DNA from: Curtobacterium sp. MCBA15_012
GTDB taxonomy: Bacteria; Actinomycetota; Actinomycetes; Actinomycetales; Microbacteriaceae
Direction: 5' to 3'
Assembly (NCBI RefSeq): GCF_001864935.2
Contig: NZ_CP126267.1
Span: 1,550,001-1,614,000 of the forward strand
DNA length: 64,000 nt
Part shown: in pieces, positions 2,384-41,976 of the stretch
Numbering within the stretch: the first letter of the stretch is position 1
Layout of the letters: the number at the start of each line of letters is the position of its first letter
Position numbers and translations under genes: made by a program
Notes under the pieces: model-generated
Told to the model about the DNA's origin: nothing
The model's database searches: none
Seen by the model: the letters and a program-made list of their open reading frames with translations, nothing else

Positions 2384-3670
2384 GTGGACCGTCCCGCCGC
2401 CGCACCGCCCCAGCCGTCGCTCGCCCGCCGTCTGACCCTGCCCGACGCCGTGCTCATCGGGCTCGGGTCGATGATCGGGGCGGGCGTGTTCTCGGCGTTC
2501 GCACCCGCGGCCGCAGCCGCGGGCGCGTGGCTGCTCCTCGCCCTGGCGCTCGCCGGTGCCGTCGCGTTCTGCAACGCCACCTCGTCCGCCCAGCTCGCGG
2601 CGCAGTACCCGACCTCGGGCGGCACCTACGTGTACGGACGGGAGCGGCTGGGACCGTGGGCCGGGTACGCCGCCGGGTGGTGCTTCGTCGTCGGGAAGAC
2701 CGCGAGTGCCGCGGCCATGGCGCTCACCTTCGCGTCCCACGTCGCCCCGGGGCCCTGGACGAGACCGGTCGCCGTCCTCGCGGTGCTCGCGACCACCGGG
2801 GTGAACCTGCTCGGGATCACCCGGACCGCGCGGCTCACCCGCGTGCTCGTCGCGGTCGCCCTCGTCGCGCTCGTCACCGTCGTCGTGATCGGCGCGACGA
2901 CCACCGCCCCCGCCGCGGACGGACCAGCCGGGGGCCCGTCACCGCTCGGGGTGCTGCAGGCCGCGGGCTTCCTGTTCTTCGCGTTCGCCGGGTACGCCCG
3001 CATCGCCACCATTGGCGAGGAGGTCGTCGACCCCGCCCGGACGATCCCGCGCGCGGTCGTCCTCGCGCTCGGGCTCGCCCTCGTCGTCTACGCCGCGGTC
3101 GCGCTCGCCCTGCTGCACGCCCTCGGCCCGGCGGGCACGGCGGGCACGCCGACACCCCTCGCCGCCGTCGCCGCGCTCCCCGGCGGGCCGTGGCCGGTCG
3201 TCGTCCGCGTCGGGGCCGCCGCGGCCTCCCTCGGGGCGCTGCTCGCGATCGTCGCCGGCATCGGTCGGACCGCCCTCGCCATGGCCCGCGGCGGCGACCT
3301 GCCCGCGGCGCTCGCCGCCGTGCACCCCCGCCGCCGGGTGCCCCACCGCGCCGAGGCGCTCCTCGCCGTCGTCGTCTGCGTCCTCGTGACGACCGTCGAC
3401 CTGCGCGCGGCGATCGGCGCCTCGGCGTTCGGTGTCCTGCTCTACTACGCGGTCGCGAACGCCGCGGCGTGGACGCAGGACCGCGCGCACCGCCGCTGGC
3501 CCCGGGCGCTGGCGCTCGCCGGGGTGGTCGGGTGCGTGGTGCTCGTCGCCGCCCTGCCACCGTCGTCCGTGGTGGCGGGCACCGTGGTGCTGGCGGTCGG
3601 ACTCGCGCTGCGGTGGGTGCGGCTGCGCCGTTCCGCTCCACGGCGCCCGAGTCCGCCGCCGGGCGACTGA
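2384..3670 (+). CDS. APC superfamily amino acid permease
   Basis: 428 residues with about 11-12 hydrophobic helices. Residues 20-45 (LPDAVLIGLGSMIGAGVF) form the APC helix I signature with its unwound GSMIGAGVF segment, which binds substrate amino or carboxyl groups in characterised members. Likely a proton-coupled amino acid or polyamine symporter in the cytoplasmic membrane; specificity not predictable. The GTG start is preceded by CAGGAT seven bases upstream, fitting a leaderless mRNA. It is divergent from the aldo/keto reductase and convergent with the sigma-factor operon downstream. Confidence 0.85.
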   Translation: MDRPAAAPPQPSLARRLTLPDAVLIGLGSMIGAGVFSAFAPAAAAAGAWLLLALALAGAVAFCNATSSAQLAAQYPTSGGTYVYGRERLGPWAGYAAGWCFVVGKTASAAAMALTFASHVAPGPWTRPVAVLAVLATTGVNLLGITRTARLTRVLVAVALVALVTVVVIGATTTAPAADGPAGGPSPLGVLQAAGFLFFAFAGYARIATIGEEVVDPARTIPRAVVLALGLALVVYAAVALALLHALGPAGTAGTPTPLAAVAALPGGPWPVVVRVGAAAASLGALLAIVAGIGRTALAMARGGDLPAALAAVHPRRRVPHRAEALLAVVVCVLVTTVDLRAAIGASAFGVLLYYAVANAAAWTQDRAHRRWPRALALAGVVGCVVLVAALPPSSVVAGTVVLAVGLALRWVRLRRSAPRRPSPPPGD

Positions 3671-3742
3671 CGCTCGCGGGTGCGCCGGACGCCAGGGGAG
3701 CCCGGCCGATCACCGGGGTCGCGCCGCGCTCGGTCCCCGTCG

Positions 3743-4639
3743 TCAGTCCGCGGAGCGGGGGTCCGTCGACGGGTCGTACCGCTGGTCGCCCCAGGTCCCG
3801 TCGTCACCGGGTGGGGCCGGGTGCTCCGACTGCCAGGTGCTGCTCACGTCGTCGAACTCGGACGCGCCGCACCAGTCGCCCGCGGACAGGTCCGAGACGC
3901 CGAAGACCACGAACAGCGAGGACTCCGGCACGATGCCGAGGGACTCGCCCCTGGCCGTCATGCACCCCTGGAACCGGTGGAACGCCGCGAGGTACTCGCT
4001 CCGGGTGACGACGCCGTCCCGGACCGCCTCCTGCTGCGCGGCGCTGGGTCCGGGCAGCGGCGGAGCCCCGAGCCACCCCGTCGACAGTGTCCAGCGCGCA
4101 CCGGGAGTGGTGCGGACGACGACGGTGCGCGACGGCAGCGCTCCGACCGCGATCGTGCCCGTCACGGTCCGACCCGGGTCGCACGAGGGCACCGAGGACC
4201 CGCCTGCCTCCGATGCCGCGAAGCCGACCCGCGTCGCCCCGGCGTCGGACAGGCAGCGGAGTGACCAGGCGAGCTGCTCGGCGCCGGGCGGTGGTGCACC
4301 GACCGAGACCTCGTCGTCCCCCGACCCGAGCACGGCCTCGGGATCCCCGACGATCGGGGTGTACGGCATCGTCGTGCCCTGCACCGCGGCCCGGGCTCCG
4401 GCACGGGCGGCCGTGGCGTCGGCGTCAGGCGTCGCGGCGGCGGTGATCGCCCCGCCCACGGTCGCACCGGCGAGCACGCAGAGCAGCGCACCGCCGACGC
4501 TCGCGGACCGCCACCGCCGTCGCCGGGCGGTCTGCTCGACGGTCGTGACGAGCAGGGACCGCAGTGCCAGGGTCCGCTCGTCGACGGCGCCTGCCGGAGC
4601 GCCGCGGTCGTCGGCTCGGGGCTGGTCGTGGTGGGTCAC
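3743..4639 (-). CDS. single-pass membrane protein coupled to an ECF sigma factor
   Basis: 298 residues. A basic cytoplasmic stretch (TARRRRWRS) is followed by one transmembrane helix at about residues 47-68; the rest is a large extracytoplasmic domain with cysteine pairs. The GTG start overlaps the sigma-factor stop (GTGA), so it is translated with it. Position suggests an anti-sigma or sensor partner, but the usual zinc anti-sigma HxxxCxxC motif is absent, so that role is inference. The exported domain has no family I recognise. Confidence 0.65.
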   Translation of the reverse strand: MTHHDQPRADDRGAPAGAVDERTLALRSLLVTTVEQTARRRRWRSASVGGALLCVLAGATVGGAITAAATPDADATAARAGARAAVQGTTMPYTPIVGDPEAVLGSGDDEVSVGAPPPGAEQLAWSLRCLSDAGATRVGFAASEAGGSSVPSCDPGRTVTGTIAVGALPSRTVVVRTTPGARWTLSTGWLGAPPLPGPSAAQQEAVRDGVVTRSEYLAAFHRFQGCMTARGESLGIVPESSLFVVFGVSDLSAGDWCGASEFDDVSSTWQSEHPAPPGDDGTWGDQRYDPSTDPRSAD

Positions 4640-5310
4640 GGGCGTGCTCCGTTCGGTCGGGTCCGGCGTGCGGGCTGGTGCTGGTGCTGGTGCTGGTGCT
4701 GGTGCTGGTGCTCGTGGTGGTGGTCGTGGTGGTGGTCGTGTGGCTCCGCATCCGACGACCGCGCGAGCCGTGCCGCCAACCGGGCACGCGCACGGGAGAG
4801 TCGGGACTTGACGGTGCCCGGCGGGATCCCGAGCGCCTCGGCGACCTCCCGCTCGGCGTAGCCCTCCAGGACGACGAGGGTCAGGACCTCCTGGTCCCGG
4901 GGAGCAAGCGTGCGGAGGGCACGCACGGCCTCCCCGTCGGTCTCGCGGTCGGCGTGGTCCGGCGACGGCTCCGGTGGGGGCAGCCGGTCGAGCGCCGCCC
5001 GGTACCGGCGGGTCGCGCGGCCCTGGTTCCGCGCCGTGTTCGTCGCCGTGACGAGCAGCCACGGGAGCACGGACCCGTCGACGAGCCGCACACGGGCCCG
5101 GAGCCGCCACGCCTCGAGGAACACGACCGCGACCGCGTCGGCGGCGTCGGCCTCGACGGGCAGCAGTCGCTGCGCGTGCCGCAGCACACGGTGCCGGTGC
5201 CGGTCGAACACGCGGCCGAACGCCTCGCCGTCACCACCGAGGGCCCGGCCCCAGTCGACGCGGTCCTCGTCGGTGCTCGTGCCCGGTCTGCCGGGCTGCT
5301 CGTTCCCCAT
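4636..5310 (-). CDS. ECF-type RNA polymerase sigma factor
   Basis: 224 residues. Region 2 is recognisable from FGRVFDRHRHRVLRHAQRLL through AVAVVFLEAWR and VLPWLLVTATN; region 4 with its helix-turn-helix is AEREVAEALGIPPGTVKSRL. It should direct RNA polymerase to a small regulon in response to an unknown signal. The C-terminal tail is unusual: about 25 residues of alternating His and Gln (HDHHHDHHHEHQHQ...) encoded by a CTGGTG microsatellite, absent from typical ECF factors. It is first in a two-gene operon with the membrane protein it overlaps. Confidence 0.88.
   Translation of the reverse strand: MGNEQPGRPGTSTDEDRVDWGRALGGDGEAFGRVFDRHRHRVLRHAQRLLPVEADAADAVAVVFLEAWRLRARVRLVDGSVLPWLLVTATNTARNQGRATRRYRAALDRLPPPEPSPDHADRETDGEAVRALRTLAPRDQEVLTLVVLEGYAEREVAEALGIPPGTVKSRLSRARARLAARLARSSDAEPHDHHHDHHHEHQHQHQHQHQHQPARRTRPNGARP
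4675..4710. repeat. hexanucleotide microsatellite (CTGGTG)6
   Basis: Six uninterrupted copies of CTGGTG, followed by degenerate GTGGTGGTC units to about 4740. On the minus strand the array encodes the His-Gln tail of the ECF sigma factor, so slippage would change tail length in steps of two residues without breaking the frame. Confidence 0.9.
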
Positions 5311-39751: not shown

Positions 39752-40354
39752 TCAGGGGTCGAGGCGGGTCCAGCCGCTCAGCGCCCGCCAGGTGCGCGGG
39801 TCGAACGTGAACACGCTGCCCATGCCCGGCTGGTCCAGGCGCCGCGAGACGGGCTCGCCCCGCAGGTCGGCGAGGAGCAGCGCCCCGACAGCGCCGTGGG
39901 CCACCACGGTGACGTCCGTGCCCCGACCGGCGGCGGCGGTGAGGTCGCGGACCGCCCCGACGATCCGGCGCTGCGCGTCGACCGCCCGCTCCCACCCTCG
40001 CACCGACTCCTCGGGCCGCGCGAAGAACGCGTCGACCACCGGTTCGAACGCCTCGGGAGGCAGGTAGCCGGTCGCGCTCCGGTCGATCTCGCCGAGCCGC
40101 GCGTCCTGCTCCGGCACCACACCGACCGCCGCGCCGAGGACGGCCGCGGTCTCGACGGCCTTGCGCTCGGTGCTCGAGACGATCCGGCGCACCCCGGGTG
40201 CCCACGCGACGCGGTGCGCGCCGGACGCCCGGGCGCGGCCGGAGTCCGACAGTCCCCAGGACTCGATCGGGACCGCGGGGTCGACGACGACCTCGGCGTG
40301 GGTCAGGAAGAACGACGGCACCGGCACAGCCTGGCAGACCCGTCCCGCCACCAC
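39752..40354 (-). CDS. histidine phosphatase superfamily protein (degenerate RHG)
   Basis: 200 residues. Phosphoglycerate mutase-like fold: FFLTHAEVVVDP with the phosphorylatable His but Thr in place of Arg in RHG, RIVSSTERKAVETA (second Arg pocket) and VVAHGAVGALLL with the distal His. The loss of the first Arg suggests weak or altered catalysis. Starts are GTG codons; the longest is given, and GTGs at 40327 or 40321 (VPSFFLTHAE) would fit family length better. Divergent from the retron, only ~16 nt from its promoter. Confidence 0.75.
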   Translation of the reverse strand: MVAGRVCQAVPVPSFFLTHAEVVVDPAVPIESWGLSDSGRARASGAHRVAWAPGVRRIVSSTERKAVETAAVLGAAVGVVPEQDARLGEIDRSATGYLPPEAFEPVVDAFFARPEESVRGWERAVDAQRRIVGAVRDLTAAAGRGTDVTVVAHGAVGALLLADLRGEPVSRRLDQPGMGSVFTFDPRTWRALSGWTRLDP

Positions 40355-40369
40355 GGCAGGGGTCGGTCG

Positions 40370-40375
40370 TATGGT
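40370..40375 (+). promoter_or_regulatory. -10 box of the retron transcript
   Basis: TATGGT lies six bases before the first base of the outer arm (40381). With the TANNNT-N6/7 spacing seen at other starts in this window, transcription would begin at or next to the arm. No convincing -35. Confidence 0.5.
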
Positions 40376-40380
40376 GTGCT

Positions 40381-40543
40381 CGTGGAGTTCCCGGGGGAGG
40401 CGGACGGCGCGCGTGACGCGTCGACCTCTCCGGGGTCACCCCGGGGCACGCAGGACCAGCAGGACCACACGCCCCGAGAGGCGCGGCGCGCTCCGCGCAC
40501 CAGCCCTCACGGAGGCACCGACAGGTCCCCCGGGAACCCCACG
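40381..40543 (+). ncRNA. candidate retron msr-msd RNA
   Basis: Outer arm a1 (40381-40398, CGTGGAGTTCCCGGGGGA) is complementary to a2 (40526-40543) at 17 of 18 positions. Between them: hairpin 40405-40423 (7-bp stem, loop CGTGA, one G-U), hairpin 40428-40446 (8-bp stem, loop TCA), then after a GGACCAGC/AGGACCA repeat a hairpin 40481-40498 (6-bp stem GCGCGG/CCGCGC). Short msr hairpins after a1 and a template part before a2 are the retron plan; the reverse transcriptase follows 19 nt later. The branching G would be 40399 or 40400 (in AGGC), by analogy only. The same interval is open in the RT frame, so a longer protein is the rival reading. Confidence 0.7.
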
Positions 40544-40561
40544 CACGCACCGCTCCCGGTC

Positions 40562-41872
40562 GTGGCGCAGGCGCTCGCCGACGCCTTCCTCGCCGCCGAC
40601 GACTGGAGCCGCGACGCGCTGACCGCCGCCGGGTACGACGTGCTCGGGGTGGAGCGGACGTACGTCGGTGTCGCGGTCGGGACGGCGCTCGACGCGTACC
40701 CACGGCCGCCCGTCGACGCGCCCCGGCAGCTCGCCGCGGTGCTCGCGACCGCCCCGCGCCTCGTCCGCCTCCACGACAGCCGCGGACCACGACGGCCCGT
40801 CCGGGTCCTGGCCCGGCAGGCCACCGCCGTGCGGGCGCGCCCGGTGACGGACAGCCCGCTGCTCGTCGACACGCTGCCCGAGCTCGCCCGAGCGCTCGAC
40901 CTGACGGTGGGGCGGTTGCTCTGGCTCGCCGACACCCGCGGGTGGAACCGCCGTCCGGGTGCGTCGAGTCCGCTCCACCACGTCCGGCACGAGTGGGTCG
41001 CGCGGCCCGGGCGGACCCCGAGGCTCCTCGAGAAGCCGATGGCGATGCTCCGGCGCACCCAGCGGACCGTCCTCGACGACCTGCTCGCGGCGCTGCCGGT
41101 CCACGACGCAGCGCACGGCTTCGTGCCCGGGCGCAGCGTCGTCACCGGTGCCGCCGGGCACGTCGGACGCCGGGTCGTCCTGACCGCCGACCTCACGTCG
41201 TTCTTCGCCACGGTCCGAGCGCCGACCGTGTACGGCGTGTTCCGCGCCGCGGGGTACGCCGAGCCGCTGGCGCACGTCCTCACCGGGCTCTGCACGCACC
41301 GGGTCCCGGTCCACGTCCTCACGGCGATGCCGCCGGGTGGGAGCATCGACGAGCGTCGGGCGCTCCGGGACGCCCTCGTCGAGGCGCACCTGCCCCAGGG
41401 AGCCCCGACGTCGCCGGCGCTCGCCAACCTGGCCCTCCGACACCTCGACGCCCGACTGGCCGGGTGGGCGACCGCAGCGGGGGCGACGTACACGCGGTAC
41501 GCCGACGACCTGACCTTCAGCGGCGACGACCGCCTCGCTGCCCGCGCCGACGCGTTCCTCCGCGGTGTCGAGCGGATCGTCGCCGACCAGGGCCACACGC
41601 TGAACCCCCGGAAGACCCGGGTCCGGCCCGCCGGGGTGCGGCAGTCGGTCACCGGTGTGGTCGTGAACGAGCGCACCGCACCCGGCCGCCGCGAGGTCGA
41701 CCGTCTCAAGGCCGTGCTGCACAACTGCGTCGTGCACGGTCCGGCGTCGCAGGACCGCGCGGGGCACGCGGACTTCCGGGCGCACCTGCTCGGCCGGATC
41801 GGCTGGGTCGGTCAGGTGCACCCGGACCGGGCAGCGAAGCTCCGGGCGCTGTTCGCCCGGATCGAGTGGTGA
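40562..41872 (+). CDS. retron-type reverse transcriptase
   Basis: 436 residues from GTG (VAQALADAF). Residues ~1-140 are a family-specific N-terminal region; then RLLEKPMAMLRRTQ, AHGFVPGRSVVTGAAGH, motif A VVLTADLTSFFATV, a ~35-residue insert with LCTHRVPVHV, LPQGAPTSPALANLAL, motif C YTRYADDLTFSGDD (YADD at 313-316), KTRVRPAGVRQ and the retron hallmark VTGVVVNE. The order, insert and LTGLCT segment recall myxobacterial Mx162-type retron enzymes. The NAxxH motif of retrons reads GAAGH here. No maturase, HNH or integrase domain. A GTG at 40382 would add 60 low-complexity residues over the RNA region. It copies the upstream RNA into msDNA; no effector gene adjoins. Confidence 0.88.
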   Translation: MAQALADAFLAADDWSRDALTAAGYDVLGVERTYVGVAVGTALDAYPRPPVDAPRQLAAVLATAPRLVRLHDSRGPRRPVRVLARQATAVRARPVTDSPLLVDTLPELARALDLTVGRLLWLADTRGWNRRPGASSPLHHVRHEWVARPGRTPRLLEKPMAMLRRTQRTVLDDLLAALPVHDAAHGFVPGRSVVTGAAGHVGRRVVLTADLTSFFATVRAPTVYGVFRAAGYAEPLAHVLTGLCTHRVPVHVLTAMPPGGSIDERRALRDALVEAHLPQGAPTSPALANLALRHLDARLAGWATAAGATYTRYADDLTFSGDDRLAARADAFLRGVERIVADQGHTLNPRKTRVRPAGVRQSVTGVVVNERTAPGRREVDRLKAVLHNCVVHGPASQDRAGHADFRAHLLGRIGWVGQVHPDRAAKLRALFARIEW

Positions 41873-41976
41873 GACGAGCCCCAGCGCACGGAACCACCCG
41901 GTAGCGGCGCTCGTCCGAGCGCCGACCCCGGACCGCGCCCCTGGCCCCGCACCGGTGTGCTCGCTACCGTGACGCC

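Follow-up and report, generated by a model that had tools for sequence, protein, structure and literature searches.

We analysed a 64,000-nucleotide stretch of Curtobacterium sp. MCBA15_012 (contig NZ_CP126267.1, positions 1,550,001 to 1,614,000, forward strand), hereafter the window, in which a reverse transcriptase (RT) gene lies behind a structured RNA of the retron (msr-msd) type. Retron RNAs are generally regarded as non-coding. Here, we found that this supposedly non-coding RNA is apparently the coding start of its own RT message in Curtobacterium, and the fold that is copied into DNA should compete with translation. The comparison of loci gives an RNA structure, a start codon at the RNA 5′ end, and an open frame through the RNA; this frame is either joined to the RT (Curtobacterium) or overlaps the RT start with its stop (most other actinobacterial loci examined). 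Judged from sequence comparison, the locus is quite probably a chromosomal retron without a recognised linked effector, in which a leaderless, translated RNA ties RT synthesis to RNA folding. The features of the locus, all on the + strand, are as follows.

40370..40375, + strand: -10 promoter box TATGGT (TANNNT), ending 6 nt before the start codon
40382..40384, + strand: GTG, predicted transcription start and predicted leaderless start codon of the RT frame (start codon in 42/43 Curtobacterium loci)
40382..40542, + strand: retron RNA (msr-msd), 161 nt (covariance model R1, 127.8 bits; covariation)
40382..41872, + strand: fused reading frame, 496 aa (residues 1-54 translated retron RNA, ~58-134 helical N-terminal domain, ~150-496 RT)
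40383..40398, + strand: arm a1, 16 model pairs, wider arm 40373-40398 (arm complementarity, consensus fold)
40399, + strand: candidate branching guanosine, first G past a1 (invariant across 18 seed sequences)
40402..40426, + strand: msr hairpin 1 (9 of 9 modelled pairs vary on both sides somewhere)
40428..40446, + strand: msr hairpin 2, nearly invariant UCUCCGGGGNNACCCCGGGG (seed alignment and covariation)
40474..40512, + strand: msd stem-loop, tip GCGCUCCGCGC (consensus fold and covariation)
40526..40541, + strand: arm a2, wider arm 40526-40551 (arm complementarity, consensus fold)
40562..41872, + strand: RT as originally assumed, 436 aa from GTG 40562 (PADLOC RT_other, E 2.4e-171)

The initial annotation had noticed complementary arms in front of the RT and a TATGGT box six bases before the first arm. 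Both are borne out: the box lies at 40370-40375, the conserved part of the arm begins at 40382, and the wider arms are 26 nt long and 85% complementary. The 12-mer GTTCCCGGGGGA (at most 1 mismatch) occurs twice in the window, confined to the arms; since two or more occurrences were also found in 16 of 100 shuffles, this is weak evidence alone and the case is carried by the comparison with relatives. The region 40376-40570 folds with -111.6 kcal/mol (z -3.1), which was equalled by none of 200 shuffles. R1, built from relatives, matches 40382-40542 with 127.8 bits (E 4.5e-23), a score that is partly given by construction because the window locus is one of the 18 seeds of R1. The consensus fold of these 18 diverse RNAs has 48 pairs, 30 of which vary on both sides. 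When 97 RNAs (92 distinct) were aligned to R1, 95.1% of the cells pair, and the covariation check that the initial annotation had proposed for arms and hairpins found both-side changes in 36 of the 48 pairs; this alignment was fitted to R1 and hence leans towards it. As a control, sliding the pairing by 1-3 columns left 40-49% paired, with scores below 0.1. R1 was searched in 100 and then 47 of 165 loci, the 18 omitted being near copies or same-genus loci; at E≤0.01 it matched 97 of the 100, among which most of its seeds sit, and 37 of the 47, mostly of other phyla. Related RTs of Actinobacteria and of other phyla are thus preceded by this RNA, with strong covariation. The region 40300-40640 gave no Rfam match even at E 10. 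From its position, G 40399 is a candidate for the branching guanosine of the predicted 2′-5′ link.

In 42 of the 43 Curtobacterium loci, an in-frame start codon stands at the RNA 5′ end and the frame is open through the RNA; the codon is TTG in L030 and ATG in L039, and it is absent in L043. In the window, GTG 40382 is at the RNA start and in frame with the RT, and 40382-40561 is an open frame continuous with the RT, which places the retron RNA inside the RT reading frame. GTG 40562, originally taken as the RT start, is not a conserved start codon, the aligned codon being GTC in 33 of 42 distinct Curtobacterium loci. Of the 45 distinct fused loci, taken over all genera, 30 offer no further ATG, GTG or TTG in frame ahead of the conserved part of the protein. 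All adjacent loci of the genus groups g1 (Curtobacterium), g5, g8 (with Subtercola) and g68 (with Naasia) keep the RT in phase with the first codon of the RNA, while the gap between the two differs (13, 19, 40, 43, 58, 64, 76, 85 or 88 nt; the gap of L158 is poorly placeable). The RNA 5′ end has a TANNNT box beginning 12-16 nt ahead of it in 89 of 97 loci (85 of 93 distinct). In the locus that lacks the start codon, L043, the RNA lies 2.1 kb upstream of the RT, which seems to own a start of the form TAGCCT-6 nt-GTG; between RNA and RT (reversed coordinates ~2702-4784) lie genes that resemble, by eye, those of a PIN toxin, a helix-turn-helix antitoxin and a phosphotransferase.

In other genera, the RNA frame and the RT are mostly separate. 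Among the 42 distinct separate loci with a start codon, 32 have the stop of the RNA frame overlapping the RT start (ATGA/GTGA or TGATG); the two control frames give 2 and 1 such loci. A test set of separate loci that was fetched later shows the overlap in 13 of 20, versus 0 and 2. Before deduplication these counts were 33/42 and 15/22; two test-set loci, L182 and L188, were dropped as their RNAs are identical to first-set loci, and four R1 matches (L142, L095, L091 and L111, E 0.00068-0.0087) that were missing from the phase, open reading frame (ORF) length, first overlap and stop counts were restored in the deduplicated ones. The ORF in separate loci with a start codon is mostly 54-107 codons long. 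Stop codons are depleted in the same frame: 62 RNAs of 161 nt hold 1 frame-0 stop against 17.0 expected from within-column shuffling, and none of 500 shuffles was as low, although these figures are not probabilities because column shuffling ignores relatedness. As a control, the same RNAs hold 13 stops in frame 1 (15.8 expected) and 36 in frame 2 (34.8 expected); when the 43 fused RNAs are taken by themselves, frame 1 is likewise poor in stops (2 against 5.4 expected). Of 34 loci without a start codon (24 outside Actinobacteria), 18 have frame-0 stops, and 12 and 12 have stops in frames 1 and 2, whereas frame-0 stops were found in 3/40 and 0/45 loci with a start codon. A start codon at the 5′ end, an open frame and a stop overlapping the next start are together what a translationally coupled leaderless upstream ORF (uORF) would present, with the frames fused in Curtobacterium.

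In a quick tree of 81 RTs the separate loci fall on deep branches within Actinobacteria, and the fused state has to change 6 times (at least 5 of these forced by starred branches) against a shuffled mean of 25.1. We read it as fusion having arisen more than once, in the Curtobacterium clade and in the Subtercola group; the place of L151 in this history is ambiguous, as its RNA has 162 nt and its start is a later one. In a further genus group, g45, 6 of 7 loci (L058, L060, L061, L062, L063 and L066) carry the RNA in the opposite orientation to the RT, and the start codon is absent from all 6. In these loci RNA and RT seem to share the palindromic AGCCTAGGCT as a divergent promoter, and the RTs seem to have their own start; their six RNAs are uninformative on the frame because they are stop-free in every frame.

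Several results weigh against translation through the RNA. Pairwise differences among Curtobacterium RNAs at the three codon positions are 0.113, 0.100 and 0.104, with no third-position excess, and the signal is absent both inside and outside stems; the case for translation thus rests on maintenance of the frame and not on conservation of the peptide, which is not visibly selected. The initial annotation had named continuous protein-level conservation through 40382-40561 as evidence that the region is not a retron RNA; no such signal was found, yet the frame is kept open, which had not been foreseen. Fifteen of the 45 distinct fused loci have a later in-frame start, including GTG 40562 of the window. 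Among separate loci, the exact overlap is absent in 10 of 42 and in 7 of 20 of the test set, two of these with a frame-2 overlap; it is missing in L101, L124, L137, L129 and L143. L049/L165 (one locus) carries a stop within the RNA, and L104 and L123 have an early stop. The frame of L051 is open, but the closest start codon in that frame lies at -6, and the box is absent from this locus and from 7 other distinct loci. The related sequences compared are not independent. Finally, AlphaFold gives no confident structure for the RNA-encoded tail (~54 residues), and its low predicted local distance difference test (pLDDT) score is partly due to no other alignment row covering the tail; the model is consistent with a tail that would be disordered where it is attached to the RT in Curtobacterium.

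Such an arrangement would work as follows. A single promoter would give a leaderless transcript, the first 161 nt of which would fold as the msr-msd RNA, and ribosomes would read through the RNA either before it folds or in place of its folding. In other genera, termination would be followed by re-initiation on the RT, while in Curtobacterium the ribosomes would continue directly into it, leaving the tail of ~54 residues. Leaderless initiation requires a free 5′ end; as a1 emerges 127 nt ahead of a2, ribosomes could initiate before the stem closes. Retron priming, for its part, requires the closed a1/a2 stem. The start codon lies within this stem (GTG:CAC or ATG:CAT), with all three pairs formed in 31 of 33 loci where the codon is at 0 and in 27 of 47 where it is at -3. 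As the priming stem engages the start codon, we infer that one RNA molecule would serve as template or as message, and that RT binding to the folded RNA would limit RT synthesis as a negative feedback. We propose more tentatively, as a possibility that we hold to be somewhat doubtful, a two-state RNA: the closed form would trap the start codon and be copied into multicopy single-stranded DNA (msDNA), the open form would be translated into RT, and RT level or a host translation disturbed by infection would set the balance, with the fold as the sensor. The Curtobacterium RT would be made with a peptide encoded by its own template attached to it, and this attachment could favour loading in cis. 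The cellular role is presumably defence.

If leader translation merely guarded the transcript from premature termination or decay, with no switch between folding and translation, an open frame and coupling would be selected likewise. The pairing of the start codon in a1/a2 is left unexplained by transcript protection, though this pairing may serve priming alone; we consider this account unlikely. Improbable, in our view, is an ordinary retron with an RT that begins after a2 and a frame through the RNA that is open as a side effect of high GC. Of 42 separate loci, 19 are open in frame 1 as well and 22 in frame 2, and the later starts in a third of the fused loci, GTG 40562 among them, would suit such an origin. 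The stop depletion and the stop/start overlap are both specific to one frame, however, most fused loci offer no later start, and relatives without the start codon show no stop depletion, all of which argue against it. We also find it quite improbable that a functional small protein made from the translated RNA (a toxin, an antitoxin or an RT cofactor) is what is selected: the frame is kept open and most separate loci with a start codon have an ORF of some length, but the lack of a codon-position signal inside and outside stems and of a confident AlphaFold structure for the peptide speak against it. In DRT2 systems, an RT is accompanied by an upstream RNA with a stop-free frame, and a reading of the present frame from reverse-transcribed DNA as a new gene would share this layout; we give it hardly any credence, since NCBIfam Drt2 scores 34.9 bits against a cut-off of 390 and the primary transcript ties the frame to the beginning of the RT.

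The RT itself agrees with the retron assignment. The motifs that the initial annotation had named are all located in one reading frame (LPQGAPTSP from 41390, YADD at 41498-41509 and VTG at 41648-41656), and the RT is the single RVT_1 match genome-wide. In PADLOC-DB 2.0.0 the best profile is RT_other (569.2 bits, over the whole profile length), followed by RT_outgroup (E 1e-161) and RT_XIII (287 bits). Curated retron models of NCBIfam match the RT with scores under their cut-offs. The AlphaFold model of the RT (mean pLDDT 89.3) has as its nearest solved structures the retron RTs Ec86, Ec67/Eco2, Eco8, Ec78/Eco7 and Ec83, and retron RTs fill the top 18 Foldseek rows and the top 14 VIA-align rows. 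Taken together with the covariation of arms and hairpins, these results uphold the retron identity that had been proposed; by sequence and fold the locus belongs to the PADLOC RT_other clade and is predicted to make msDNA. Retron type XIII was rejected on the RT_XIII score of 287 against 569 bits. The N-terminal extension that had been described is real, except that the translated retron RNA makes up its first ~54 residues. Behind them, the N-terminal domain consists of five helices (pLDDT 82.1). Compared with PDB folds it gave 0 Foldseek matches at E≤0.001, by which a new fold is not implied, and Pfam gave no family common to two of the 46 members scanned. As a side observation, this domain (40544-40783; ALAxAFLAAxxW ... 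YPRPPxDAPRELA) is conserved mainly within Actinobacteria.

RT matches were found in 44 of 66 genomes of the genus, with the copy in G035 split and that in G022 a fragment. In the G035 locus the RT falls into two overlapping matches, as if frame-shifted, and the upstream RNA still scores 133.7 bits; a second, distant RT (32% identity) is present in another Curtobacterium genome (G061). In a sample of the family, 57 of 398 genomes have RT matches at E≤0.001, some only via distant RTs, and in a sample of the class the RNA is present in 12 of 394, the window's own genome counted. Six RT-less genomes were compared at the neighbouring short-chain dehydrogenase/reductase (SDR) gene. Only G003 gives a clean empty site, the other five diverging more: its histidine-phosphatase and DUF4287 regions are 38 bases apart, with no extra gene, where the window has 40316-41961, so the cassette there consists of promoter, RNA and RT. 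No PADLOC retron effector model matched any of the ten neighbours scanned, and the linked effector gene or domain that marks a tripartite defence retron was not recognised here; a RidA-like protein and an oxidoreductase among them gave weak matches to other PADLOC models. Clusters of unannotated flanking ORFs across genera showed no repeated downstream family among the matches listed. Those that repeatedly adjoin the RT in at least 5 genera, among the matches listed, are upstream ORFs (such as those of 70-107 aa whose end lies 59 nt ahead of the RT), which we take to be the retron RNA itself. A protein search for phage carriage kept 80 RT relatives on viral contigs, and none matched query residues 1-74; the row with the best E-value has 35% identity, and the top identity is 45% over 99 residues.

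If this reading holds for a large actinobacterial clade, its annotated RT starts and RNAs need to be revised, a feedback may be built into retron expression, and engineering of these retrons must keep the reading frame as well as the fold. It would also give a testable entry into the control of retrons without a linked effector. In the open-access literature, no translated, leaderless or overlapping retron RNA was found among the matches listed, nor a translated RNA for this retron clade, nor a paper saying that RT_other gene models contain RNA-encoded residues.

Placement in the Mx162 group of myxobacterial retrons, as first suggested, is not shown by the profiles, in a comparison that covered three myxobacterial RTs but no Mx162 sequence: the window RT is best in RT_other, two of the three myxobacterial RTs are best in RT_XIII (L148 and L140) and the third in RT_other (L097). 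Both types have an N-terminal extension and occur across closely related species, and the window RNA is shorter than the Mx162 transcript (161 against 241 nt), with the Mx162 traits as reported in PMC6868368. The whole-length matches to RT_other and RT_outgroup are the closest, and the RT_other profile carries no description, RNA, translation or coupling information. Adding the RNA-encoded residues raises the RT_other score from 569.2 to 581.3 bits, and this gain of 12 bits suggests that existing gene models of the family already include translated RNA; in the PADLOC profile PDLC02949 (RT_other), positions ~21 to 70 align to RNA-encoded residues. Retron-Ec86 (Eco1) differs, in that the window has no recognised effector gene, an RNA read as coding and an extra N-terminal helical domain. 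Leaderless TANNNT transcripts are common in Mycobacterium tuberculosis (PMC3898074). In the ppe2 transcript of M. tuberculosis, a structured B12 riboswitch leader likewise precedes a translated uORF with an AUGA overlap, at which termination and reinitiation occur (PMC11260477). The ppe2 leader is a riboswitch, whereas the leader in the window would be a template for reverse transcription, with the two frames fused in Curtobacterium.
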